DNA of 11,263 bases from Erysipelotrichaceae bacterium (GTDB lineage Bacteria > Bacillota_I > Bacilli_A > Erysipelotrichales > Erysipelotrichaceae), in contig DMBB01000031.1 of assembly GCA_003446295.1 (NCBI GenBank), forward strand, positions 1 through 11,263. Reading direction: 5' to 3'. Positions 1 through 10,284 of this stretch are shown one piece after another. The number at the start of each line of letters is the position of its first letter. Position 1 is the first letter of the stretch. The position numbers were made by a program, and so were the translations under genes. The notes under the pieces were generated by a model. It saw only the letters and a program-made list of their open reading frames with translations. It was not told the origin of the DNA and ran no database searches.

Positions 1-1175
1 TGACCTCTGATCTCAGCTTCGTCACGGACTCCTCCAAGGCTCATCTTGACGAATTTTCTGTCAAGGCTTCTTGCAATACTCTTGGCAAGTGATGTTTTGC
101 CGACACCCGGAGGACCGACAAGGCAGAGGATCGGGCTGTTCAGATTGCCCGTCATCTGTTTGACTGCGAGGTACTCCATGATGCGTTCCTTCACCTTTTT
201 CAGGCCGTAATGATCTTCATCCAGGATCTGTTTGACTTCCTTCAGATTCTCATTGTCTTCTGTGCACTGCCACCAGGGAACTTTCAGCAGCCAGTCAAGA
301 TACGTACGGGAAACAGAAGCTTCTCCGGATCCCGGAGGCAGCATTTCATAGCGTCTCAGTTCTTCTCTTGCCTTTTCCTTGACATGTTCCGGATACGGGT
401 TTTTCTCGATCATTTCCCGCATCTGTTCCGTGTCATCGGACATGCTGGTCGTATCGCCGAGTTCTTCTTTGATCGCCTTCAGCTTTTCTCTCAGATAGTA
501 TTCCTTCTGGCCATCGTCGATGTGTTCCTTCACCCTGTCATTGATCGTTGCTTCGATCTGGCTGAAGCGCTGCTGTTTTTCAAGCTCGGCAATGATCATC
601 AGCATTCTTTCGTTGACATCCAGTGTTTCCAGAAGCTTCTGTCTGACGGATGTATCCATCGGGAAATACTGTGAGATCTGGTCTGTCAGCGTGATTGCGG
701 AAACGCCGCGTGTCAGCTGGGAAATGACTTCTGCAGGGAATGAACTGCTCAGATTGCTGAATCGTTCAAATTCGGAAATGATGCGCTTTACAAGTGCCAT
801 CTCCTCCATCTGGTTGCCCTGGATATCATTCAGGACTTCGATATCAGCCATCATCATATCGCTGTTATTGTCAAGCTTGACAAGTCTTGCACGCTTCATT
901 CCCGTGAATGTTACGCGCATAAATCCTTCCTTGCGGCGGACGATCTTGATCTTGCTGAGCGTTCCGGTGCGGAAAAGGTTTTCTTCTTTCGGATCATCGA
1001 CCATGATGTCATTCTGGCATACGACCCAAACCATCGAATCATATGACTGTGAGGACGTGTTCACAGCATTGATCGATTTAGTACGGCCGACCTCGATCAT
1101 TGAATCGAGACCGGGGAACAGGATAATCCCTCTCGTTGCAACGACAGGAACTCTTACAATAGATTCATTACTCAT
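1..1175 (-). CDS. lon: ATP-dependent protease Lon (endopeptidase La), N-terminal part, cut by window edge
   Basis: Lon is a cytosolic AAA+ serine protease that degrades misfolded and selected regulatory proteins. Reading the minus strand from ATG at 1175 gives an open frame of 391 codons to the window edge, with no stop. It opens with [16 protein letters not shown], typical of the Lon substrate-binding (LON) domain, followed by a helical segment ([12 protein letters not shown], about residues 200-215) and the AAA+ module. The Walker A motif GPPGVGKT falls at residues 354-361, as expected for the family, and the visible part ends in [13 protein letters not shown]. The sensor motifs and the Ser-Lys protease domain lie beyond base 1. 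The start is supported by AGGAGGT at 1181-1187, five bases upstream. The gene follows tig after 83 bases, separated by a terminator-like hairpin, so expression could come from read-through of the CIRCE-controlled tig transcript or from an unseen local promoter. Identification is firm; only the fragment is visible. Confidence 0.97.
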
Positions 1176-1180
1176 TGAGT

Positions 1181-1187
1181 ACCTCCT
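1181..1187 (-). promoter_or_regulatory. Ribosome binding site of lon (AGGAGGT)
   Basis: AGGAGGT lies five bases before the lon ATG and fixes that start. A 10-base palindrome, TTATCGATAA, at 1189-1198 sits immediately upstream. I see no convincing -35/-10 pair in the short gap between the tig hairpin and this site. Confidence 0.85.
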
Positions 1188-1216
1188 GTTATCGATAAAC
1201 AATAACCCATTTGGAT

Positions 1217-1258: not shown

Positions 1259-2581
1259 TTATTCTGCTTCAGCAGGTGCTTCGGCAGGTGTTTCAGGTTC
1301 CTCTTCAGGCACGCCCTTAGCGGACTTCTTGACGAAGTCATATGCCTTCTGGGATCTGATGTCTGTCATCAGCATGTCACGGTCAACGAGTTCTTTGACG
1401 CGTTCAACCGGCATCTGATACATTTCTGACAGATTCTGATATTCTTTTTCGATCTCTTCTTCTGTCAGTTCCAGGTTTTCAGCTTTTCCGATCGCTTCGA
1501 GTACGAGGCGCATCTTAACGGATTTTTCGGATTCCTCGCGGAAGCTTTCTTTGAACTGTTCAGCTGTCTGTCCCATCATCTGCAGATAACCTGTCAGAGA
1601 CATGTTGTACTGCTGCAGCTGTGACTGGAGCTGCTGTACATGATTCTGGATCTCGTCCTCGATCATGACTTCAGGGATATTGACTTCAGCGTTGTCGCTG
1701 ACACGTCTGAACAGATCTTCATCTGCTTCTCTTGTAGCAATCTGTTTCTTGCTGTCTTCCAGACGTTTTCTGACGAGTGCCTTCAGATCATCAACTGTTT
1801 CCACGCCCGGAGCGTTGACATCCTGTGCAAAATCATCATCCAGTTCAGGAAGAACCTTTTCTGTAACTTCGTTGACCTTTACCTTGAACACAACATCTGC
1901 GCCGGCAAGATCTTCTGCATGGTAATCCTCGGGGAATTTCAGGTTCAGTTCTTTTTCATCTCCTGCCTTTACACCGACCAGCTGCTCTTCAAATCCGGGG
2001 ATGAAGCTTCCGCTGCCCAGCACAAGCTTGTATCCTTCAGCGGAGCCGCCTTCGAATGCTTCATCGCCTTTGAATCCCTTATAATCAATGTTGACTGTGT
2101 CACCCATTGCTGCAGGGCCTTCTTTTGTAACGATGTCGGAATACTGTTCACGCATACGGTTGATCTCTTTATCGAAATCCTCATCCGTTACCGTTGTATC
2201 TCCCATGTTGTAGTCGAGTCCTTTGTATTCGCCGAGCTTGACTTCAGGCTTGACTGTAAGCTTGAAGATCAGTTCTGCGCATTCATCGTTCAATGTTCCA
2301 AGATCCAGTTCGGGTCTTGCGACCAGTTCCAGATTGTTTGCTTTTACTTCTGCCTGCAGTACATCATTTGCGACTGCATCGACTGCTTCGTAATATACCT
2401 GCTGTCTGGGAATCCTCTTTTCAAGCATCTTTCTGGGTGCTTTTCCTTTTCTGAATCCGGGCAGTTCGATCGTCTTTGCGATCTTGTTGAATGCCTTATC
2501 ACAAGCCTTTGTCCAGACCTCTCCCTCTACTTTAGCGACAAGCTCGCCGGTTGAATTCTCTTTCAGTGTCCAAGTTGACAT
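1259..2581 (-). CDS. tig: Trigger factor, ribosome-associated chaperone and peptidyl-prolyl isomerase
   Basis: Trigger factor binds the ribosome at the tunnel exit (protein L23) and shields nascent chains. The 440-residue length is normal. The ribosome-binding signature GFRKGKAP is at residues 42-49 in the N-terminal domain. The FKBP-type isomerase domain spans about 155-245 (GDTVNIDYKGF at 160-170, FIPGFEEQLVG at 193-203). The remainder is the helical C-terminal chaperone domain, ending in an acidic Pro/Ala/Glu-rich tail (residues about 424-440). The start is supported by AAAGGAG nine bases upstream. Transcription probably starts at the TTGACA/TATGAT promoter around 2703-2731, which carries two CIRCE-like operators. 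That implies HrcA heat-shock control of a gene usually not regarded as an HrcA target. lon lies directly downstream; clpX, often found between tig and lon in Bacilli, is absent here. Confidence 0.98.
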   Translation of the reverse strand: MSTWTLKENSTGELVAKVEGEVWTKACDKAFNKIAKTIELPGFRKGKAPRKMLEKRIPRQQVYYEAVDAVANDVLQAEVKANNLELVARPELDLGTLNDECAELIFKLTVKPEVKLGEYKGLDYNMGDTTVTDEDFDKEINRMREQYSDIVTKEGPAAMGDTVNIDYKGFKGDEAFEGGSAEGYKLVLGSGSFIPGFEEQLVGVKAGDEKELNLKFPEDYHAEDLAGADVVFKVKVNEVTEKVLPELDDDFAQDVNAPGVETVDDLKALVRKRLEDSKKQIATREADEDLFRRVSDNAEVNIPEVMIEDEIQNHVQQLQSQLQQYNMSLTGYLQMMGQTAEQFKESFREESEKSVKMRLVLEAIGKAENLELTEEEIEKEYQNLSEMYQMPVERVKELVDRDMLMTDIRSQKAYDFVKKSAKGVPEEEPETPAEAPAEAE

Positions 2582-2617
2582 TTGTTGAAGCTCCTTTCAT
2601 CTATAATTACCTGTTAG

Positions 2618-2626
2618 AGTATAACA
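2618..2626 (-). promoter_or_regulatory. Possible secondary extended -10 promoter for tig (TGTTATACT)
   Basis: TGTTATACT on the minus strand is an extended -10 (TGn plus TATACT, five of six consensus bases) about 37 bases before the tig start. No good -35 lies at the proper distance. It could give CIRCE-independent basal expression, but it may be chance in an A/T-rich leader. Confidence 0.3.
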
Positions 2627-2674
2627 AACTTCGTCATGAACTGCTACACTTTTAACAGCGATATCTGTTTTCAT

Positions 2675-2701
2675 TTAGCACTCGCACCTGAAACCTGCTA
2701 A
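2675..2701. promoter_or_regulatory. CIRCE-like HrcA operator 1 (downstream copy, overlaps +1 of tig promoter)
   Basis: The CIRCE consensus is TTAGCACTC, nine bases, then GAGTGCTAA. Here TTAGCACTC at 2675-2683 is a perfect left arm. A spacer of exactly nine bases follows, then ACCTGCTAA at 2693-2701, which matches six of nine right-arm positions. It covers the expected transcription start (about 2696) of the tig promoter, where HrcA would block initiation or clearance. Confidence 0.8.
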
Positions 2702-2724
2702 AATCATACACAATGATTTTAGCA
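2696..2724. repeat. Perfect 12-base inverted repeat linking the two CIRCE copies
   Basis: TGCTAAAATCAT (2696-2707) and ATGATTTTAGCA (2713-2724) are exact reverse complements around five bases. The repeat is made of the inner arms of the two CIRCE copies and contains the -10 and much of the promoter spacer. It produces four alternating TTAGCA/TGCTAA half-sites across the control region. Confidence 0.85.
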
Positions 2725-2731
2725 CTGTCAA
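2703..2731 (-). promoter_or_regulatory. Sigma-A-type promoter of tig (TTGACA, 17 bases, TATGAT)
   Basis: On the minus strand TTGACA (2731-2726) is a perfect -35. A 17-base spacer follows, then TATGAT (2708-2703), five of six -10 bases. Predicted start is near 2696, giving a leader of about 115 bases to tig. The -35 lies within CIRCE copy 2 and the start lies within CIRCE copy 1, so promoter and operators are interlocked. Confidence 0.85.
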
Positions 2732-2745
2732 CAGCTGACTGCTAA
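2719..2745. promoter_or_regulatory. CIRCE-like HrcA operator 2 (upstream copy, overlaps -35 of tig promoter)
   Basis: TTAGCACTG (2719-2727), exactly nine spacer bases, then GACTGCTAA (2737-2745): each arm differs from CIRCE at one position. The palindrome extends outward as ATTTTAGCA/TGCTAAAAT (2716-2724 and 2740-2748). It covers the TTGACA of the tig promoter. Confidence 0.85.
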
Positions 2746-2816
2746 AATTCTATGGTTTTTACAGAAGATCACTTTTCGTGATGCGTTCATTGATATGTGT
2801 TTCCGCTTTTGATACG

Positions 2817-3503
2817 TTAAGATCTTGATTTTACGACCTGTTCTGCCCTGCGGTATGTATTGCCGTCATCCATCAGTTCACTGACTTCACGAATCGCTTC
2901 CAGTGCAATGAATGATGCTTCTTCTGTTTCATATGACAGCGGCAGATACAAATATGCCTGATGCACAAGTACTGATCTTGCCATTTCCAGCATTGCCGGA
3001 TCTTTACCGATCAGATCATCGAGCATGCTCAGCGCTTCACGGAAGCCCAGGCTTTTGCTGACAGGCGTCACCGCATCGCCCCAGAAGGTATATTCCATAC
3101 CGTCCTTTACGATCTCGAATTCTTCCTGTATTTCCTGTTCAGCGATTGCATCTATGAGCAGCGCGGCTGCTTCCGGAAGCGGATCATTCCTGAGATATGC
3201 TTTGAGATCGGAAATGTATGTGCGCAGATTTCTGTCAGAAAGCTGCTGTGCTGCAGTCAGCTGGCTGGCAGGATTCCCTCCCAGCATTCTCAGCAGATCA
3301 TCTGCAGACTTTTCGTGTGATTCGTTCTTCTCGGTCTTTGCATAAACAGCGTCTTTCTGTAGCTTTCTCAGTTCCTGTTCTATATCAGGCGGAATATACG
3401 GCATCGACAGTTCTTTCCTGATCAGGAACAGTGCTTCGTCAGCTTCGCCGTTTTTTGTCAGCTGTCTGATCTCATCCAGGATCTCATCATAGTAGCTGCT
3501 CAT
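2817..3503 (-). CDS. Conserved hypothetical cytoplasmic protein, DUF3196-like
   Basis: This 228-residue, acidic, mostly helical protein has no signal peptide or membrane segment. The N-terminus (helices, then a conserved-looking MPYIPPD at residues 34-40 and a coiled segment IEQELRKLQKDA) resembles the DUF3196 family of Mollicutes and Erysipelotrichia. That assignment is from memory and tentative. A central linker rich in Lys/Glu/Ser (55-68) leads to a helical C-terminal half with hydrophobic repeats that could form a TPR-like fold. No catalytic motif is recognised and I assign no function. The start is supported by AGAGG upstream (CTTTATATGAGAGGTTATTATG). The gene begins 26 bases after tRNA-Arg and ends 235 bases before tig. 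A weak hairpin at 2768-2782 (ATCAC/GTGAT) follows it but lacks a T-run. Confidence 0.8.
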   Translation of the reverse strand: MSSYYDEILDEIRQLTKNGEADEALFLIRKELSMPYIPPDIEQELRKLQKDAVYAKTEKNESHEKSADDLLRMLGGNPASQLTAAQQLSDRNLRTYISDLKAYLRNDPLPEAAALLIDAIAEQEIQEEFEIVKDGMEYTFWGDAVTPVSKSLGFREALSMLDDLIGKDPAMLEMARSVLVHQAYLYLPLSYETEEASFIALEAIREVSELMDDGNTYRRAEQVVKSRS

Positions 3504-3529
3504 AATAACCTCTCATATAAAGAAAAAAG

Positions 3530-3603
3530 CGTCCTGGGAGGGATTCGAACCCGCGACCACTCGCTTAGAAGGCGAGTGCTCTATCCAACTGAGCTACCAG
3601 GAC
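3530..3603 (-). tRNA. tRNA-Arg, anticodon UCU
   Basis: The minus strand folds as a complete cloverleaf. The acceptor stem GTCCTGG (3603-3597) pairs with CCAGGAC (3537-3531), with discriminator G at 3530. The D arm contains AGCTCAGTTGGATAGAGC. The anticodon stem is CTCGC/GCGAG around loop CTTCTAA, giving anticodon TCT at 3567-3569. The T arm carries GGTTCGAATCC. This reads AGA/AGG Arg codons. CCA is not encoded; the acceptor stem is followed by C and six T (3528-3523), which may end transcription. It sits 15 bases beyond the metallophosphoesterase stop codon. Confidence 0.98.
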
Positions 3604-3612
3604 AGCGAAACT

Positions 3613-3641
3613 ATAATATCAGAAGTGTTTTCTGATTTCAA
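3613..3641 (-). promoter_or_regulatory. Promoter of tRNA-Arg (TTGAAA, 17 bases, TATTAT)
   Basis: TTGAAA (3641-3636) and TATTAT (3618-3613) are separated by 17 bases on the minus strand. Predicted initiation is near 3606, three bases before the mature tRNA 5' end. The -35 lies inside the end of the upstream metallophosphoesterase gene, so the tRNA (and perhaps the gene after it) can be transcribed independently. Confidence 0.65.
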
Positions 3642-4128
3642 GCATTTCATATTCCATTCTTTTCGTTTCTATATGATCTTCGTACAAATTGACGATCATA
3701 TAGGTCGGTTTTGAACCGTCACGGTTATAACGGATACTCCCGGGATTGAGCAGAATGATACCGTCCGATTCAATTTCCGTATATATGTGTGTATGACCGA
3801 AAAACACGATCTGACAGCCCATGTTCTTTGCCCGCTTAACGAGCGGTGCAACATTGCGCCAGTACATATCATGATGTCCATGGCACAGCAAAATCTTGTA
3901 CTTATCGATCTGGATGGTCAGATATTCCGGAAGATCACCGTAATAGTCATTGTTTCCTCTCACACAGGCATATCCATGAAGCATTCTTTTAGGAAACTCA
4001 CTGTCTCCAAGATGAAAGAAATAGTCAGCTTCTTTTGAATATACCTGCCGTATCCTGACGATCGGCTCTTCCAGACCGTGATTATCACTCACGGCAACAA
4101 TTGTAACAGGCCAGTTCATGTCAAGCAT
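3619..4128 (-). CDS. YfcE/YsnB-family calcineurin-like metallophosphoesterase
   Basis: The 169-residue size is normal for the MJ0936/YfcE family of small phosphodiesterases with a binuclear metal centre. All signature motifs are in order: SDNHG at 14-18 (D15, H17), HLGD at 39-42 (D42), RGNND at 57-61, CHGHH at 82-86 and GHTH at 111-114, with NPGS at 128-131. Such enzymes hydrolyse model phosphodiesters with Mn or Ni in vitro; the natural substrate is generally unknown. It is predicted cytosolic. The chosen ATG at 4128 has GAGG four bases upstream; an internal ATG three codons later (4119) is also possible. The gene is followed directly by tRNA-Arg and preceded by a long gene-poor stretch with mobile-element debris. 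A weak promoter (TTCCGA, 18 bases, TATATT at 4144-4139) may drive it. Confidence 0.93.
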   Translation of the reverse strand: MLDMNWPVTIVAVSDNHGLEEPIVRIRQVYSKEADYFFHLGDSEFPKRMLHGYACVRGNNDYYGDLPEYLTIQIDKYKILLCHGHHDMYWRNVAPLVKRAKNMGCQIVFFGHTHIYTEIESDGIILLNPGSIRYNRDGSKPTYMIVNLYEDHIETKRMEYEMLEIRKHF

Positions 4129-4176
4129 TATACCTCATAATATACGAGGCTGCTAACATTTTTCGGAAAACCTCTG

Positions 4177-4332
4177 TCACAGGCTGTGATCCAACACATC
4201 TCCGACTGAACCAGCTTCCTGCTTCATCGACAGGTAACTGCATTGCGTGCAATGCCCGACATAGCTGTCTCCGCAGGCTTGAGATTCCAAGACTGACCGA
4301 TTCCGATGGTGCCTCACCGTATGGTCAGTCCG
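4177..4332 (-). pseudogene. tnpB (fragment): C-terminal remnant of an IS200/IS605-family TnpB (RNA-guided nuclease)
   Basis: TnpB proteins are RuvC-type nucleases encoded by IS200/IS605-family elements and guided by an RNA derived from the element's right end. On the minus strand an open frame of 51 codons ends at TGA 4179-4177. It contains ESQACGDS, then SMKQEAGS, in the order and spacing of the extreme C-terminus of Firmicute TnpB proteins (the ACGD and EAGS motifs just after the zinc-ribbon region). No RuvC or zinc-finger part is recognisable upstream, where the frame meets noncoding-looking sequence. The DNA also carries hairpins expected of this terminus: 4240-4255 (GCATTGC/GCAATGC, two-base loop) and CCTG/CAGG around 4219-4234. 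A further stem that I would expect near 4200-4216 appears degraded. I read it as a decayed element end. Identification rests on remembered motifs, not an alignment. Confidence 0.7.
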
Positions 4333-4336
4333 TTTT
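4291..4336 (+). repeat. Long nested hairpin with T-run, at upstream edge of the TnpB remnant
   Basis: GACTGACC (4291-4298) and GGTCAGTC (4323-4330) pair perfectly, enclosing a second stem ATGGTG/CACCGT (4306-4311 and 4315-4320) with loop CCT. On the plus strand it is followed by CCGTTTTT, so it resembles an intrinsic terminator in that direction. Its overlap with the TnpB reading frame makes it equally likely to be part of the element's structured end. Confidence 0.5.
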
Positions 4337-4381
4337 TGCATATTTGTAAAAGTTATTTCTGGTATTTGTGATTCATTTTCT

Positions 4382-4421
4382 GTTATCGTCAGATAACGGA
4401 CTGCTGCTGTTGATGCAGCAG
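4382..4421. repeat. Two adjacent perfect hairpins
   Basis: GTTATC-gtca-GATAAC (4382-4397) and CTGCTGC-tgttgat-GCAGCAG (4401-4421) lie three bases apart. Neither has a T-run directly after it on either strand. On the minus strand they follow the stop codon of the micro-ORF at once. Confidence 0.6.
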
Positions 4422-4425
4422 ACGT

Positions 4426-4461
4426 TTATGTATTTGATACATGTTTGTTCATGTGTTTCAT
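4426..4461 (-). CDS. Possible micro-ORF or leader peptide (11 residues, MKHMNKHVSNT)
   Basis: An ATG at 4461 is preceded by a textbook AAGGAGG (4475-4469) at seven bases and is read for 11 codons to TAA at 4428-4426. The same frame can be opened from a GTG farther upstream, giving about 40 codons. A candidate promoter, TGGAAC (4547-4542), 17 bases, TATATT (4524-4519), lies about 50 bases before the ATG. Right after the stop come two strong hairpins (4421-4401 and 4397-4382). This is the layout of a leader peptide with attenuator-like RNA, but the downstream sequence is only the TnpB remnant and then the metallophosphoesterase. No homologue is recognised. It could be a relic or chance. Confidence 0.3.
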   Translation of the reverse strand: MKHMNKHVSNT

Positions 4462-4608
4462 CAGGCTGCCTCCTTCATTGAACTTCTGAGTATCATTCTG
4501 CTTTTTCTCAGGTACTTTAATATACGGACTGATATCATGCAGTTCCACGAAATTATTTCATTGATTTTGCTGTGTACATTCATGATTCATGTGTAAATGC
4601 GCTCTTTT

Positions 4609-4617
4609 TGTTATAAA
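4609..4617 (+). promoter_or_regulatory. Extended -10 promoter (TGTTATAAA) of the small membrane protein
   Basis: TGTTATAAA is an extended -10 (TGn plus TATAAA). A good -35 is not visible. Predicted initiation near 4623 leaves a leader of only about 14 bases that contains the ribosome binding site GGGTGA. Confidence 0.55.
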
Positions 4618-4636
4618 ATGAATTCGGGTGAAGATT

Positions 4637-5020
4637 ATGAATATTAATTTGTTTCCGTTTAATTTTTATATATTTTATGCAGCGATCGTACTGCTGATCA
4701 TTTTCCTGGTAATGACTGTTGTCAAAGCCATGCCCCTCCTGAAAGCATTGGGTGATCTGAAACAGCCTCTTGAACAGATGTCAACGAGGGTTGCTGATGT
4801 CAGTGAAAAAGCAGGCAAGGTTACTGCTATGGTCAACAGTATTGTTTCCACAGTCAAAAAAGTCGTGCCGATCATGGTTCTGCTGAGCCTGGCTAATGAG
4901 TTCTATCAGGATTCTGAGGAGAACGGCATCAAGGAGTTCGGCAGAAGCACAGTCAAAGCGATCCAGAAACAGCAGGATGAAAAGAAGCTTGCCAAGAACA
5001 TCGCCAAGCTTCTAAAATAA
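4637..5020 (+). CDS. Small membrane-anchored helical protein, function unknown
   Basis: This protein of 127 residues (from the ATG at 4637) is the only clear plus-strand gene here. Residues about 8-32 form one strong membrane helix (FYIFYAAIVLLIIFLVMTVVKA). An amphipathic, probably coiled segment follows (about 36-75, with EQMSTRVADVSEKAGKVTAMV), then a moderately hydrophobic patch VVPIMVLLSL (about 77-86). A Lys/Glu-rich tail ends in KKLAKNIAKLLK. The layout recalls small DUF948- or YtxH-like envelope proteins, but I cannot assign it to a family. I prefer the ATG at 4637 because GGGTGA at 4626-4631 is well placed for it; a GTG at 4628 in the same frame has no ribosome binding site. It converges on the winged-helix gene and shares a terminator region with it. 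Confidence 0.75.
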   Translation: MNINLFPFNFYIFYAAIVLLIIFLVMTVVKAMPLLKALGDLKQPLEQMSTRVADVSEKAGKVTAMVNSIVSTVKKVVPIMVLLSLANEFYQDSEENGIKEFGRSTVKAIQKQQDEKKLAKNIAKLLK

Positions 5021-5045
5021 CGCACGGTTAATCCCATGTATGAAC

Positions 5046-5080
5046 AAAGCACTCAAACATTTCTGTCTGAGCGCTTTTTT
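5046..5080 (+). terminator. Intrinsic terminator, partly bidirectional
   Basis: AAAGCACTCA (5046-5055) pairs with TGAGCGCTTT (5068-5077) with one A-C mismatch, and an inner ACA/TGT closes the loop. Six T (5075-5080) follow on the plus strand. It ends the membrane-protein gene. On the minus strand it lies 28 bases beyond the winged-helix gene and could terminate that too, with a poorer T-run. Confidence 0.8.
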
Positions 5081-5107
5081 GTTGTCTGCAGAATACTTTC
5101 TATGATG

Positions 5108-5395
5108 CTATGCGTTAACGAACTGATATCCCCTGCCCCAGCGTCTTTTCACAAACTCCGGACGGGAGGGATCATGTTCGATCTTTTCCCTGATATGTCT
5201 GATATGTACTGCGATCACAGGACGGCATTCAAACGGGACTGCCTGCCAGATATACTGATACAGTTCTTCCGGTGAAACGCAACTACCGGAATGATCGATC
5301 AGATAATCAAGGATCTCGAATTCCCGGGGAGTCAGATGAACTGTTCCCTGCGGTGTTTCAGCTGTACGGCTGCTGTGATTGAGAGTAATGTTCAT
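5108..5395 (-). CDS. Stand-alone OmpR/PhoB-type winged-helix DNA-binding protein
   Basis: All 95 residues correspond to the C-terminal effector domain of OmpR/PhoB response regulators. LTPREFEILDYLI (22-34) is the typical first helix. SPEELYQYIW (41-50) leads into the turn, VIAVHIRHIREKIE (60-73) is the recognition helix, and VKRRWGRGYQFV (82-93) forms the wing hairpin. The usual receiver domain with its phosphorylated Asp is absent, and no sensor kinase lies nearby. The start is certain, with GGAGGTGA three bases before ATG, so it is not a clipped longer gene in this window. It would act in the cytosol as a DNA-binding regulator controlled by abundance or a partner. It lies downstream of the BlaI-M23 pair but is separated by a terminator. 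An inverted repeat, GCCTGG/CCAGGC (5446-5451 and 5405-5410), in its leader touches the ribosome binding site. Confidence 0.88.
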   Translation of the reverse strand: MNITLNHSSRTAETPQGTVHLTPREFEILDYLIDHSGSCVSPEELYQYIWQAVPFECRPVIAVHIRHIREKIEHDPSRPEFVKRRWGRGYQFVNA

Positions 5396-5460
5396 AATTC
5401 ACCTCCAGGCTAAATACTGCCTTCATACTGATACACGGAATTTATGCCTGGCAGGTCACA

Positions 5461-5495
5461 AAAAAATACAAAAATAATAAAACGGCACCCGTTTT
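5461..5495 (-). terminator. Terminator of the BlaI-M23 operon
   Basis: On the minus strand AAAACGG/CCGTTTT (5495-5489 and 5485-5479, loop GTG) is followed by a long T-rich tail (ATTATTTTTGTATTTTTTT). It starts 19 bases past the stop codon of the M23 gene. Confidence 0.8.
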
Positions 5496-5513
5496 GAATA
5501 CCGTTTGATCTGT

Positions 5514-6920
5514 TTAGCCTCCGTATATGCTTTCCGGTCTTACCCTGCATGGTGCTCCTGCACCGTTTTCACAGAGTCTGTTCAAAGCTGCCGAACCCCA
5601 TCCGCATCCGAATGAGAAGTCACCGTTCCATGTCTGGGCATAGTTAGTGAAGTCAGCAGCGCTGCCGAGGTAGAAGATCTCAATGTGACAGTGCGGTCCT
5701 GTACTGTTTCCCGAGCTTCCCAAAGCACCGATTGCATCACCTGCCATAACGATGCTGCCGGCCGCGATTGGTGATCCCGCAAGCAGATGCAGATATTTGA
5801 TCGCGTAGAGTCCGCCGTTGACCTTAGTCAGAAGATAGACCTGGTTGCCGCCGCCTTGTGAGCCATTGCGGTTCTGTGCGCCGCATGAACTGCCGAGCTC
5901 TCCATACGGACATCCATCCTGACTCTTCAGGACAACTCCGTTTCCGATCGCTACAACAGTTGAGCCGAGCGGTCCGGCAAAGTCTGCACCGAGATGCACG
6001 CCTCCTGAAGCATAGTGCCATGTACCGGCTTCAGGGTTGATGCCTGCACCCGGTACCGGATGATTCCAGCCGCTGCTTGCAGTAACCTGGTTCAGTTTTT
6101 CCGTGATGCTGCGCATCATTTCCCGGATGCTGTCAATGTCACCTGCAATCGTGTTTCCTTGTGCTTCAAGGTTTGCGCTCTGCTTTCTGTATTCTTCCTG
6201 AATGACCTGTGCCTGGTATTTCAGTGCAAGGATCGAATTCTGGCGGGCAACAATATCAGCTTTTGCTTTATCCAGCTCTGCCTTTGCCTTTTCCAGTTCC
6301 TCTTTGGCTTCGTTCAGCCGTTCGATCTCTTCAGCAAGCTCTCTCATGACTTCTTCGTCATAACCGGTGATATCCGACAGACCATTGATCACTCTGATCA
6401 GATCCGAGAATTTCCGGACCCCCATGATGACATCCAGGAACTGGTTCAGTCTCATGGTTTCCTGTGAGATCTCCATTCGTTTCTGGATCTTTTCCTCCGT
6501 CACCGTAATATCTGCTTCTCTTTGATCAATATCAGCCTGTTTCTCATCGATCTCTGCCTGCTTGACTTCGATCTTGTAATTCAGATCGTAGATCTCTCCG
6601 TTCAGCGCATCAGCCTGTGACTGATATCCGCTCACCTGACGTGCATAGTACACAACGTTTTCAGCGATCGCTGCACGCTGTGCTTCGATCTCTTCCAGCT
6701 GTTTTTTCAGTTCCTCGCTCTGTGCCGACATGTAATCCATGTAAGCACTGCAGCTTTGCTTTTCAGAAGCTGTCAATGGCAGCAGACCCGAGCAGAGATT
6801 CGACCAATACTTTGAGTCAGAGTAATCGGGATCTTCTGCACTGGCAGGATAGATCGTAAAGCAGATACCTGTCATGACTGCCGCGCTGAATTGAATCAGT
6901 TTTTTACGTACAGTCTCCAT
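5514..6920 (-). CDS. Secreted coiled-coil M23 peptidoglycan endopeptidase (EnvC/PcsB-like layout)
   Basis: M23 enzymes are zinc metalloendopeptidases that cut peptide cross-bridges of peptidoglycan. The 468 residues start with a signal peptide (KK at 6-7, hydrophobic 8-24, likely cleavage after ASA at 26-28). A long coiled coil follows at about 65-280 with repeated KAxAELDKAKAD-type heptads, then the M23 domain from about 285. Zinc and catalytic residues are intact: H309 and D313 in HLGAD, H378 in YLHL, and H410/H412 in HCH. The mature protein has eight cysteines. Two (337, 346) lie in a Gly/Ser-rich insertion inside the M23 fold and three (439, 450, 458) in an added C-terminal tail, suggesting disulfides outside the cell. 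The ATG follows the repressor stop codon after one base, so translation is probably coupled and expression is under the BlaI-type repressor. Coiled-coil M23 proteins of this shape often act in daughter-cell separation. Confidence 0.94.
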   Translation of the reverse strand: METVRKKLIQFSAAVMTGICFTIYPASAEDPDYSDSKYWSNLCSGLLPLTASEKQSCSAYMDYMSAQSEELKKQLEEIEAQRAAIAENVVYYARQVSGYQSQADALNGEIYDLNYKIEVKQAEIDEKQADIDQREADITVTEEKIQKRMEISQETMRLNQFLDVIMGVRKFSDLIRVINGLSDITGYDEEVMRELAEEIERLNEAKEELEKAKAELDKAKADIVARQNSILALKYQAQVIQEEYRKQSANLEAQGNTIAGDIDSIREMMRSITEKLNQVTASSGWNHPVPGAGINPEAGTWHYASGGVHLGADFAGPLGSTVVAIGNGVVLKSQDGCPYGELGSSCGAQNRNGSQGGGNQVYLLTKVNGGLYAIKYLHLLAGSPIAAGSIVMAGDAIGALGSSGNSTGPHCHIEIFYLGSAADFTNYAQTWNGDFSFGCGWGSAALNRLCENGAGAPCRVRPESIYGG

Positions 6921-6921
6921 A

Positions 6922-7290
6922 TCATTTTCCTGTTTCTTTCTCCGATACGCTTTCCAGCAGAGCAGTCAGCTGCTGCGTTTCATTCACAGTCAGTTTTCTG
7001 TCTTTCAGATAGCTTGTAATGAAGTCCCCCAGTGAATCATTGAATTCTTCTTCTACAAGTTTTTTCGTTTTCTGACTGTAATACTCATCTTTGCTGATGA
7101 TCATCTTCAGACCGCTCCGCTGAGGAAGCAGATAACCTTTGTCTCTGATCCTCCGGATCAAGGTAAATACGGTTGATTTTTTCCACCCGTATGATTCTTC
7201 ACAGATATGCCAGACATCCATTGAAGAAATACCGGGATGATCCCAGATAATTCTTGCCACTCTGTTTTCGGCTTCACTAAGTCCTTCCAT
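6922..7290 (-). CDS. BlaI/MecI/CopY-family transcriptional repressor
   Basis: This 122-residue protein has the family's length and order. A winged helix spans about 1-70 (LSEAENRVARIIWDHPG at 4-20, WKKSTVFTLIRRIRDKGYL at 36-54). A dimerisation helix follows, with FNDSLGDFITSYL at 83-95, which lines up by eye with FNSLVLNFVEKE of MecI. The Asn-Phe bond that is cut in MecI/BlaI would correspond to D89-F90 here. These repressors are normally inactivated when a BlaR1/MecR1 sensor protease responds to beta-lactam, but no sensor gene is in the window. The start is ATG 7290 behind a run of six G three bases away. The upstream promoter carries two TACATATG-type operators, implying autoregulation and control of the M23 gene that follows after one base. 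Confidence 0.92.
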   Translation of the reverse strand: MEGLSEAENRVARIIWDHPGISSMDVWHICEESYGWKKSTVFTLIRRIRDKGYLLPQRSGLKMIISKDEYYSQKTKKLVEEEFNDSLGDFITSYLKDRKLTVNETQQLTALLESVSEKETGK

Positions 7291-7303
7291 GATCCCCCCA
7301 AAA

Positions 7304-7321
7304 GGACTACATATGTAGTCC
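7304..7321. promoter_or_regulatory. BlaI/MecI-type operator 1, perfect 18-base palindrome
   Basis: GGACTACATATGTAGTCC is an exact palindrome containing TACATATGTA, which fits the TACAnnTGTA core known for BlaI/MecI operators. It covers the predicted transcription start (about 7320) of the repressor gene and lies 14 bases before its ATG. Confidence 0.9.
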
Positions 7322-7326
7322 CTTTT

Positions 7327-7355
7327 ATCGTATTACTGAAGTTTACATATGTCAA
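7327..7355 (-). promoter_or_regulatory. Sigma-A-type promoter of the repressor-M23 operon (TTGACA, 17 bases, TACGAT)
   Basis: TTGACA (7355-7350) is a perfect -35, and TACGAT (7332-7327), four of six bases, stands 17 bases downstream on the minus strand. Both operators overlap this promoter: one at the -35 and one at the start site. Confidence 0.8.
7342..7355. promoter_or_regulatory. BlaI/MecI-type operator 2, imperfect, over the -35
   Basis: TTTACATATGTCAA has the same TACATATGT core as the perfect palindrome 38 bases away, with a weaker right arm that doubles as the -35 TTGACA on the minus strand. Confidence 0.65.
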
Positions 7356-7457
7356 CCTTTCAGGCTTTATTCATGCATGTTAAGCGATTGAGAAGGAGAT
7401 GAAAATGATCAGTTTCTGACTGTCTTTTTTCATTCCGCTTGATGATCTGTCCCGGAT

Positions 7458-7490
7458 AAAAAAAAGCTTCCGCTAGCGGTTAGCAGAAGC
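7458..7490 (-). terminator. Strong terminator of the mutS2-uvrC-VanY-like operon
   Basis: On the minus strand GCTTC-t-GCTA (7490-7481) pairs with TAGC-g-GAAGC (7475-7466) and is followed by eight T (7465-7458). The stop codon TAG (7475-7473) of the VanY-like gene lies inside the hairpin. Confidence 0.92.
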
Positions 7491-8513
7491 AATATAGTCA
7501 GCGAATGTCTGATGATTCAGATGAAGCTGTGTGGACAGCTGGTTTCCTACATACCGGTAATGGTACATCTGGGCACCGATTCCGGTAACCTTCTCACTTT
7601 CGTGATCCCAGCTGGTTATAAATCCGTATTTGTATGCATTTTCCTGGAGCCAGAGGCTCTGCAGTGTCCGCTCGAATGTCGCGTTGCTGATGCCTTCTAC
7701 ACGGAAATCACATGTCAGTCCGAGCTGCCGTTCACAATGACCGGGATACTGCTCATATCTGAGCACTTCTTTGCCGTATCTCAGTTTTGCTTCATCATAC
7801 AGTTCTTTCTGTGCATCATAGGATACGTAGCCTTCGGTCACGATCAGTCCTGCACATGCCCTTTCCGAATTCAGTCCTTTTTGAATATCCCTGCACATCT
7901 CTTCCAGATGTGTTTTGGCTTCATCCTGCATCAGGATCTGTTTATCACTCGGAACTTCTTCGGATAAGACGCGCAGCTGGGTCGGTGTTCGTTTTACGAT
8001 CGTATTGCTCGCATCTACCCAGGCGTCAAGATTGGATGCATTCATAACCAGAACACTGTCCTGTTTATAAGGATCTCCGTTGTCCAGATAGTCTTTGATC
8101 TCTTCATAGGAATACTGGGACAGCAGGATGATCAGCGTATCGATATCCATCACATCCCTTGTGTCTTCGACCATACGTACGATCTGGGCCGGTGTTCTAT
8201 CCCATTGATACGTTGAGAGGCGCTTGTACTCAGCCGCATTGTAAATATTGAATCCTTCTTCACGGATAAAAGCGATGAAGACATTCGGTGCGATCGAGTA
8301 TTCAATAATATAGTCGATCTCGTCCGGCGTCAGATATTCTTTGATCAGTTCCCGGCTTTTCTGATCTGTGTACGGATATCTTGACAGTGAATCATATTTG
8401 CTGTTAAGAATACCGATACATACAGAACCAAGCAAAGCGACACATAAAACAAATACAGCTGTCAGTATTCTGATCTTCAGACTGTTACGGTTTATCTCAC
8501 TCATACCTGACAT
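7473..8513 (-). CDS. Membrane-anchored VanY-like (M15) protein, probably not an active D,D-carboxypeptidase
   Basis: VanY-family enzymes trim D-Ala from peptidoglycan stem peptides. From ATG 8513 (AAGGA seven bases upstream) the protein has 346 residues. It has a short cytosolic N-terminus, one membrane helix at about 14-36, an unrecognised extracellular helical region at about 48-190 (YLTPDEIDYII, NVFIAFIREEGFNIYNAAEYKRL), then a VanY fold. The fold signatures are recognisable: GYVSYDAQ (228-235), PGHCERQLGLTCDF (257-270), ENAYKYGFI (291-299) and YHYRYVG (317-323). Compared with the usual motifs GYRS, SEHxxGLAxD and E-x-x-H, the Arg is V230, the first zinc His is R262 and the catalytic Glu is Q315. 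Only D269 and H318 of the metal site remain. It therefore looks like a pseudoenzyme that might bind wall peptides. It is the last gene of the mutS2-uvrC operon, four bases after uvrC. Upstream in-frame ATGs, up to 8600, lie inside uvrC and are less likely. Confidence 0.85.
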   Translation of the reverse strand: MSGMSEINRNSLKIRILTAVFVLCVALLGSVCIGILNSKYDSLSRYPYTDQKSRELIKEYLTPDEIDYIIEYSIAPNVFIAFIREEGFNIYNAAEYKRLSTYQWDRTPAQIVRMVEDTRDVMDIDTLIILLSQYSYEEIKDYLDNGDPYKQDSVLVMNASNLDAWVDASNTIVKRTPTQLRVLSEEVPSDKQILMQDEAKTHLEEMCRDIQKGLNSERACAGLIVTEGYVSYDAQKELYDEAKLRYGKEVLRYEQYPGHCERQLGLTCDFRVEGISNATFERTLQSLWLQENAYKYGFITSWDHESEKVTGIGAQMYHYRYVGNQLSTQLHLNHQTFADYIASANR

Positions 8514-8517
8514 TATA

Positions 8518-10284
8518 TCATCCTTCATCATGCAATGCCGCATATACTTTTTCTGCAGTTTCCATCGGAACGACTTCGGCAATGGCTTCAACGTCCGCAT
8601 TTTTGAGATTTGTGAAGTTTCCGAATGCTTTCAGGAGCTTCTGCTTGCGTTTGGGACCGACTCCCTCCACCTCATCCAGGATCGACTTTGTCTGTGCTTT
8701 TGAGCGAAGTTTGCGGTGATATGAGATCGCTCTCCGGTGCACTTCATCCTGCATTCTTGTCAGCAGGAAGAACAATCCGGAGTCACGGTCGATATCAAAT
8801 GTTCTGAAATCCGTATCCATCAGTGCATTTGTGTTATGTCTGTCATCCTTTACCAGACCCATGATCTTGATGTCAATGCCCAATGAGTCAATGATCTCTT
8901 TCGCGGCTTCGATCTGGGTTCTGCCTCCATCGACGAGGATACCGTCAGGCATTCTCCCGTTCTCCTTCAGCAGTCTGAAGTATCTGCGGTAAACGACTTC
9001 CTTCATGGAATCCACATCGGAATTGCCTGTATGGAGTTTATACAGACGGTAGCTTTTCCGATCAGGCACGCCATCCTCATATACAACACAGCTGGCAACA
9101 GTGAACTGACCTGAGATATGGCTGTTATCGAACAGTTCTACACGTCTCATAGGACGTCCTGCCAGTTCGGAAAGCTGCTTGACAGCATTTTCAGTCATGC
9201 TGTTCTGCTGTTCAGCCGCGTCGAATTTCAGGTTGAGCTGCTGTTTTGCATTTTCGATGCACATATCGATCAGCTTCTGACGGTAGCCCTTCTTCGGGAT
9301 GAATACCGCCATGCCGAGCGTATCCTGGAGGTCCTGCTGGAATGATTCGCATTCCGCGGAGAGCACCAGCTCTTTGGGTTTCGGATGATCCTCATAGAAC
9401 TGCAGCAGGAATGACTGAAATTCTTCCGCAGCATCCCCGTACAGAGGCTTTAAACGGAATTCTTTGTTCAGTACAGTGCCGTTTCTGACCAGGAATCCGG
9501 TGATTGCCAGATATCCCCTGTCTTCATACCACGCGAATACATCCCTTGTGCCTTTCTTGTCGGTTTCGATCATCTGACGGTCTATGACACGTTCGATGCT
9601 GGTGATCATCTCAAGATACTGGGCAGCTTTTTCAAACTCCAGGTTTTCACTGGCTTCCAGCATTTTTCTGTTCAGCTCTTTGGTGATCTCTTTGGTGTCC
9701 CCGTTCAGGAATGAAGTTACTCCGTCGGACATCTTTTCGTATTCTTCAGGACTGATCTCATACTCGCAGGGTCCGAGGCACTGGCCCATGTGATAGTACA
9801 GGCACACTTTGTCCGGGAGCTTTGTGCACTTGCGGAACGGGTAGAGTGTCTGCAGGATCTTCAGCGTATTGCGCGCTGCTGTCGCGTCAGGGAACGGCCC
9901 GAAGTATCTGGCGTTCCGGTCCTTCTTCATATCACGTGCGATCATCAGTCTCGGATACTTTTCCTTCGTCAGTTTGATGTAAGGATAGCTCGAGTCATCA
10001 ATGAACATGATATTGTATTTCGGCCTGTATTTTTTGATCAGATTGATCTCCAGGATCAGCGCTTCTTTTTCGCTTCTGGTGACAATGAAATCAAAATCAT
10101 CAATGTTGGATACAAGCTTGGTCGTTTTAAAATCATGTGCACCGGTAAAATACTGGTTGACACGGTTATGCAGGTTTTTTGCCTTGCCGACGTAGATGAT
10201 CTCGCCGTTTTTATCCTTCATCTGGTAACTGCCCGGTTCATCAGGCAGATTGGCTAGTTTCGCCTTTAAATATTCACGGTCCAT
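8518..10284 (-). CDS. uvrC: UvrABC excinuclease subunit C
   Basis: UvrC makes the two incisions of bacterial nucleotide excision repair after UvrA/UvrB load at the lesion. The 588-residue length is typical. The GIY-YIG nuclease domain is at about 14-92 (GSY at 18-20, YVGKAKNL at 31-38, LEINLIKKYRPKYN at 78-91), with the active-site Glu expected in its last helix. Four cysteines, C153, C161, C169 and C173, match the [4Fe-4S] ligand pattern. A UVR (UvrB-contacting) motif lies at about 200-235. The RNase-H-like C-terminal nuclease includes DNSHISG (386-392) and LVDGGRTQ (450-457), and helix-hairpin-helix repeats follow at about 535-585 (GVGPKRKQKLL). The start has AAAGGA eight bases upstream, inside the end of mutS2; the gap to mutS2 is four bases. 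All functional parts appear intact. Confidence 0.98.
   Translation of the reverse strand: MDREYLKAKLANLPDEPGSYQMKDKNGEIIYVGKAKNLHNRVNQYFTGAHDFKTTKLVSNIDDFDFIVTRSEKEALILEINLIKKYRPKYNIMFIDDSSYPYIKLTKEKYPRLMIARDMKKDRNARYFGPFPDATAARNTLKILQTLYPFRKCTKLPDKVCLYYHMGQCLGPCEYEISPEEYEKMSDGVTSFLNGDTKEITKELNRKMLEASENLEFEKAAQYLEMITSIERVIDRQMIETDKKGTRDVFAWYEDRGYLAITGFLVRNGTVLNKEFRLKPLYGDAAEEFQSFLLQFYEDHPKPKELVLSAECESFQQDLQDTLGMAVFIPKKGYRQKLIDMCIENAKQQLNLKFDAAEQQNSMTENAVKQLSELAGRPMRRVELFDNSHISGQFTVASCVVYEDGVPDRKSYRLYKLHTGNSDVDSMKEVVYRRYFRLLKENGRMPDGILVDGGRTQIEAAKEIIDSLGIDIKIMGLVKDDRHNTNALMDTDFRTFDIDRDSGLFFLLTRMQDEVHRRAISYHRKLRSKAQTKSILDEVEGVGPKRKQKLLKAFGNFTNLKNADVEAIAEVVPMETAEKVYAALHDEG

Follow-up and report, generated by a model that had tools for sequence, protein, structure and literature searches.

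The trigger factor gene tig and the adjoining gene for the Lon protease appear to form an operon with stacked promoters, in which a gene-proximal promoter (P2) would provide basal expression and a promoter further upstream (P1) would be controlled by the repressor HrcA through two operators; the probability of this reading is put at roughly 85%. If tig-lon does carry such a conserved HrcA switch, folding during translation and proteolysis by Lon would both be coupled to a feedback that senses GroE. On sequence grounds the known regulator HrcA gains in tig-lon a predicted new target operon, whose promoter module is widespread. The operon lies in the window, the whole 11,263-nucleotide stretch of DNA that was analysed, which is Erysipelotrichaceae-like in sequence (its tig product is closest, among the named proteins listed, to that of a Solobacterium sp. 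MAG, at 61%) and whose lineage is one of gut bacteria. The relevant features are as follows.

3 to 1202, minus strand: lon, ATP-dependent protease La, 5' part (Pfam LON_substr_bdg and AAA), running off the window
1259 to 2581, minus strand: tig, trigger factor, 440 aa (Pfam Trigger_N, FKBP_C and Trigger_C; NCBIfam TIGR00115 at 409.8 bits, cut-off 180.2)
2618 to 2626, minus strand: predicted promoter P2, extended -10 TGTTATACT, 36 nt ahead of the tig start codon and outside both operators
2675 to 2701, minus strand: operator 2, CIRCE-type, TTAGCAGGT-N9-GAGTGCTAA, 3 of 18 arm bases off consensus
2703 to 2731, minus strand: predicted promoter P1, -35 TTGACA (2731-2726), 17 bp, -10 TATGAT (2708-2703)
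2719 to 2745, minus strand: operator 1, CIRCE-type, TTAGCAGTC-N9-CAGTGCTAA, 2 of 18 arm bases off consensus

By their repeat pattern the sites at 2675-2701 and 2719-2745 are putative CIRCE operators. They are the only matches in the whole window to TTAGCACTC-N9-GAGTGCTAA with up to three mismatches allowed, the core TTAGCA-N15-TGCTAA is perfect in each and both spacers are nine bases long. The original prediction had described two copies of the HrcA operator pattern with nine-base spacers around one sigma-A promoter; coordinates and spacers hold, while the arms are not exact copies of the pattern, being three and two bases off. The position-matrix scoring that it proposed ranks both window sites first. 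Two matrices were built on 25 operator pairs located before hrcA in other genomes, with all tig sites and the genomes G218, G224 and G238 excluded from training; the operator-1 matrix has its top match at 2719-2745 with 29.1 bits and the operator-2 matrix at 2675-2701 with 28.1 bits (60 random sequences of 11 kb reached 12.3 at most with either matrix), so that the two sites agree in their order with the operators of the hrcA operon.

P1 is the top promoter-like match in the scanned stretch 2300-7500, with 11 of 12 consensus bases. Its -35 is made up of the last four spacer bases and the first two right-arm bases of operator 1, and TTGACA is completed because that arm opens with a departure from consensus, G to C. 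Operator 2 starts one base past the P1 -10, and the start of transcription is predicted near 2696, about 7 bp past the -10 and within the left arm of operator 2. One operator covering the -35 and the other the start, as had been claimed, is therefore what the coordinates give, and the overlap is such that binding could block RNA polymerase. The claim of a single promoter did not survive: the TTGACA-17-TATGAT element is indeed promoter-like, but the extended -10 of P2 had been missed. An inner inverted repeat between the operators, TGCTAAAATCAT ... ATGATTTTAGCA, was considered as a further element and is taken to be incidental, since it is broken in L090 and further double-site loci.

The arrangement is conserved at tig among relatives, which is consistent with membership of an HrcA regulon. 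The gene was searched in 244 Erysipelotrichaceae genomes drawn evenly out of a larger group and found in 225; the 111 family loci compared comprise the window, 30 loci and 80 picked among the matches listed (225 matching genomes of 244). In 53 of the 111 loci the 400 bp upstream of tig contain at least one site with three mismatches or fewer, and in 24 they contain two. No CIRCE precedes tig in 58 loci of the wider family, one of them incomplete, which makes the link between tig and CIRCE lineage-bound. Sites occur between tig and lon in 2 of 111 loci and inside the tig coding sequence in none. A tig tree of 117 rows, which adds L004, L005, L065, L031 and two outgroup rows, places the window in a clade of 40 rows (SH-aLRT 100) with 25 double-site, 12 single-site and two site-less rows and one cut locus; the last, L099, whose contig ends 81 bp before tig, was excluded, which leaves 39 assessable clade loci; 37 of these retain one or both sites. 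The original prediction would have been refuted by relatives that lose the repeats and keep the promoter. The two site-less clade members (L097 and L118) do not answer to this description, as they have no TTGACA upstream of a retained P2 box; L003 (the same locus as L113) does in part, having lost operator 1 while keeping operator 2 and a -35 of TTGACT, and it indicates that the promoter can outlive one operator.

Outside this clade, a separate group of 16 rows (SH-aLRT 85) carries in every row one CIRCE that starts 64-73 bp before the tig start codon. Inspection of five such rows, and of L232 from outside the group, shows the CIRCE forming the -35 of the promoter nearest to tig, which has a TTGAC-type -35 followed by TATAAT. 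A scan of genome contigs found a site before tig in six of the 80 loci listed (L001-L005 and L065) and none in L008 and L019, which are Erysipelotrichaceae by title; the other 72 of these loci, not Erysipelotrichia by title, have no site before tig either, with Longibaculum counted among the Erysipelotrichia. A plasmid search returned only tig genes of less than 60% identity and was not used.

Trigger factor is usually seen as a housekeeping chaperone. P2 is free of CIRCE and is situated downstream of operator 2, ahead of the tig start codon, with P1 about 85 bp upstream of it. The extended -10 box TGnTATA(A/C)T is found in 24 of 24 double-site loci tested, 28-41 nt ahead of the start codon (200 dinucleotide shuffles gave a mean of 1.4 and a maximum of 5 of 24); this count leaves out L001, L002 and L004, retains near-identical loci and uses start codons assigned automatically by a script. 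Within 75 bp of the tig start, a P2-type box is present in 25/25 double-site, 30/30 single-site and 32/57 no-site loci, and its occurrence in the latter two classes suggests that it is probably the older, housekeeping element. A constitutive P2 and an HrcA-repressed P1 are favoured with good confidence as the best reading of the pair. As long as cells are not stressed, free GroEL/GroES would keep HrcA active, a feedback described for B. subtilis, and HrcA dimers would occupy both operators 44 bp apart and bar RNA polymerase from P1, with the operator-free P2 maintaining trigger factor and Lon at a basal level. Misfolded protein would occupy GroE and lead to the release of HrcA, upon which P1 would add tig and lon transcription alongside that of other HrcA targets. 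The presence of a second promoter implies that tig-lon is probably expressed without heat and raised by heat, rather than plainly switched. In E. coli, an excess of trigger factor is described in the available part of one study as cutting protein production and growth (PMC11559001), so that constitutive expression supplemented only upon heat would seem a sensible design.

P2 may nevertheless make the net effect of HrcA small. It is possible, if on balance unlikely, that the operators bind HrcA while P2 carries nearly all tig-lon transcription, so that heat induction is slight and the operators serve chiefly to silence a weak P1. The P2-type box in all 25 double-site loci fits this, as does the variability of the stretch holding the P1 -10, whose pairwise identity is 0.49 across 17 double-site loci (those more than 85% alike removed). 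In the same loci, however, the operator arms have pairwise identities of 0.91-1.00, whereas the flanks (40 bp upstream, 25 bp downstream) fall to 0.29 and the spacer of operator 2 to 0.32. In a set of 27 double-site rows, the -35 is TTGACA in 26 (TTGAAA in L187). Conservation of the arms and the P1 -35 against drifting flanks suggests a selectable effect.

Control by HrcA would extend to lon by read-through from tig. The two genes adjoin in 110 of 111 family loci, the exception being L204, which ends right after tig. In the window they are 56-83 bp apart, according to which lon start codon is taken; it may be the ATG at 1175 instead. That HrcA controls tig only, with lon having its own promoter or being otherwise separated, is improbable: it draws on gaps of up to 238 bp in some relatives and on the two genomes in which a CIRCE pair in the tig-lon gap amounts to a lon promoter, but the gap of the window is short, no terminator-like site was seen on the minus strand between 1000 and 2820, and the pattern search with up to three mismatches gave no CIRCE-type site in the gap.

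In those two genomes (loci L206 and L214) the CIRCE pair is located between tig and lon rather than before tig, which suggests that lon has its own HrcA-type promoter there, as in mycoplasmas. According to the available part of a Mycoplasma pneumoniae study, lon (MPN332) is transcribed from the promoter of tig (MPN331) and is also under a CIRCE upstream of lon, and the same part does not name tig as HrcA-regulated (PMC7737663); the corresponding portions of reports on M. gallisepticum (PMC4245973) and Spiroplasma melliferum (PMC5138195) describe lon with CIRCE as well. Lon is thus likewise a CIRCE target in these three Mollicutes, with the difference that the M. pneumoniae element is upstream of lon and the operators of the window precede tig. 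The original prediction had noted that trigger factor, with lon directly downstream, is not a textbook HrcA target. For tig this agrees with the literature searched, in whose available parts tig was not found as an HrcA target (subscription papers and regulon databases lay outside the search); for lon it does not, since its description as a CIRCE/HrcA target in the three Mollicutes makes it a not unexpected one. Given the pairs before tig, the 16-row single-site group and the gap pairs of L206 and L214, the tig-lon operon is linked to predicted CIRCE elements in several ways across lineages. Loci with two operators and P2, with one operator on the gene-nearest promoter, with operators moved to lon and with none would form a natural comparison set.

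The repressor itself is encoded in the near-twin genomes G218 and G224, whose tig is 97-98% identical to that of the window; on TIGR00331 the G224 protein reaches 310 bits against a cut-off of 197.2. In a test of 27 genomes hrcA was found in 25, and in a smaller test in 8 of 9. Family-wide, 219 of the 244 genomes have it, and so do 48 of the 52 that carry a site before tig; the four in which it was not found are G226, G125, G057 and G084 (completeness not given). As hrcA is present in most site-less genomes too, its presence does not discriminate between them. An operator pair in a 44-bp register precedes hrcA in 28 of 33 loci, near-identical loci kept; among the remainder one has a spacing of 46 bp, three have a single site and one is cut (L086, L138, L152 and L156 have no assigned start codon and that of L087 looks wrong). 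The spacing at tig is likewise mostly 44 bp (43-46), and in sequence, order and 44-bp register the predicted operator pair is common to tig and hrcA in related genomes. The proposal that tig and lon belong to the HrcA regulon of this lineage gains support from the 37 of 39 clade loci, the hrcA gene of the near-twins and this match to the hrcA-operon operators. Cooperative binding of two dimers on one face of the DNA was considered as a reason for the register and set aside: the listed pairs across the class are spaced by 43-47 bp (47 being the limit of the pattern), a spread that suggests the spacing may merely follow promoter geometry.

Double operators are known from Lactobacillus plantarum, where the part of the report available gives two CIRCE elements before hrcA (PMC3842655), and from S. 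melliferum, whose dnaK and clpB promoters each have two copies in the excerpt available (PMC5138195). Across the class, a pair with TTGACA in operator 1 occurs at least once in 136 of the 395 genomes sampled, and with the pattern read backwards in none. In 30 sampled class loci the pair is within about 20 bp of the start of a clpB-like gene (18), hrcA (10) or htpG (2), the identity of ClpB having been checked by NCBIfam in 3 of 18, as best match on truncated proteins. The tig pair resembles the L. plantarum double operator but lies farther from the start codon than these class pairs: between its end and the start codon are 61-106 bp, which include the P2 box, and at tig an HrcA-type promoter has thus been added ahead of a further promoter.

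That the same pair precedes hrcA itself also speaks against the repeats being sites of another regulator with a similar palindrome or acting as RNA hairpins, a very improbable alternative in either form. Operator 2 does overlap the point where the P1 transcript should begin, yet its arms pair over six bases only, and apart from a tRNA elsewhere the window has no Rfam match. The hairpin form was rejected on its folding, since neither of the two strands folds more stably than shuffled sequence (z 1.16 and -0.52). Chance resemblance, which has nothing but the imperfect arms in its favour, has a negligible probability and is already refuted by the conservation of the sites in the clade; against it also stand their absence from the coding sequences of the 111 tig genes and the dinucleotide shuffles of the window, which hold a mean of 0.01 CIRCE sites and in 0 of 200 cases two.

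In the near-twins the putative operators extend well beyond tig. All ten exact TTAGCA-N15-TGCTAA sites of G224 are located before chaperone or protease operons, at seven promoters: groESL, hrcA-grpE-dnaK-dnaJ-clpB (two), one hsp20, an hsp20 pair (two), ftsH, htpG and tig-lon (two). Allowing one mismatch adds two sites, one beside the htpG site and one with no gene assigned, and the backwards control also gives two. The sites of the single hsp20 (L161) and of ftsH (L163) are between divergent genes and were assigned by distance, that of hsp20 also by a TTGAAA facing the gene; dnaJ was named from its N-terminus only, and clpB scores 1175.5 bits on TIGR03346, below the cut-off of 1232.1. G218 has the same set except that none was found before htpG, and G238 the same with one hsp20 locus instead of two and two further sites at contig ends where genes are not visible; groESL has a single site in all three genomes. 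At the hsp20 pair (L162, L166) the second TTAGCA-N15-TGCTAA site is 99 bp away, compared with the 44-bp pairs elsewhere, and is AT-rich and further off consensus. In G224 and G238 (L294, L295) the genes hrcA, grpE, dnaK, dnaJ and clpB follow one another in the same direction, so that HrcA may control clpB as well, by way of the promoter of hrcA. Pfam CtsR was found in 0 of 244 genomes and CtsR_C in 0 of 115 above cut-off, with two sub-threshold matches; this absence is provisional because the control detected only Lactococcus lactis and not B. subtilis, which has ctsR.

The B. subtilis operons named as repressed by HrcA in the available part of one source are two (PMC8957991). Operator class, repressor family and the position of the operator at the promoter are the same as in that regulon (groESL and hrcA-grpE-dnaK-dnaJ), but here tig-lon carries operators, and the near-twins add the hsp20 genes, ftsH and htpG. 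It may tentatively be suggested that HrcA, gauged by free GroEL, masters nearly the whole cytosolic protein-quality network of the lineage, which could then comprise the DnaK system with ClpB, GroE, the small Hsps, Hsp90, FtsH, and trigger factor with Lon. If this were true, the amount of nascent-chain chaperone would depend directly on chaperonin load, and having two promoters would be the solution by which a safe basal dose of trigger factor is kept. A conserved HrcA switch at tig-lon would also illustrate how, in a lineage related to the mycoplasmas, a small regulon has been extended to proteostasis in general.

Elsewhere in the window, a tRNA gene (3530-3603, minus strand; Rfam tRNA, 67.1 bits) is located upstream of tig between a metallophosphoesterase gene and a DUF3196 gene. 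At 6922-8600 (minus strand) a gene for a BlaI-type repressor (Penicillinase_R) adjoins one for a VanY-type D-Ala-D-Ala carboxypeptidase; no BlaR1-like sensor is among the ten window proteins scanned with Pfam. At 5108-5395 (minus strand) a 95-aa protein has no receiver domain and is made up solely of Trans_reg_C, a DNA-binding domain of the response-regulator type.
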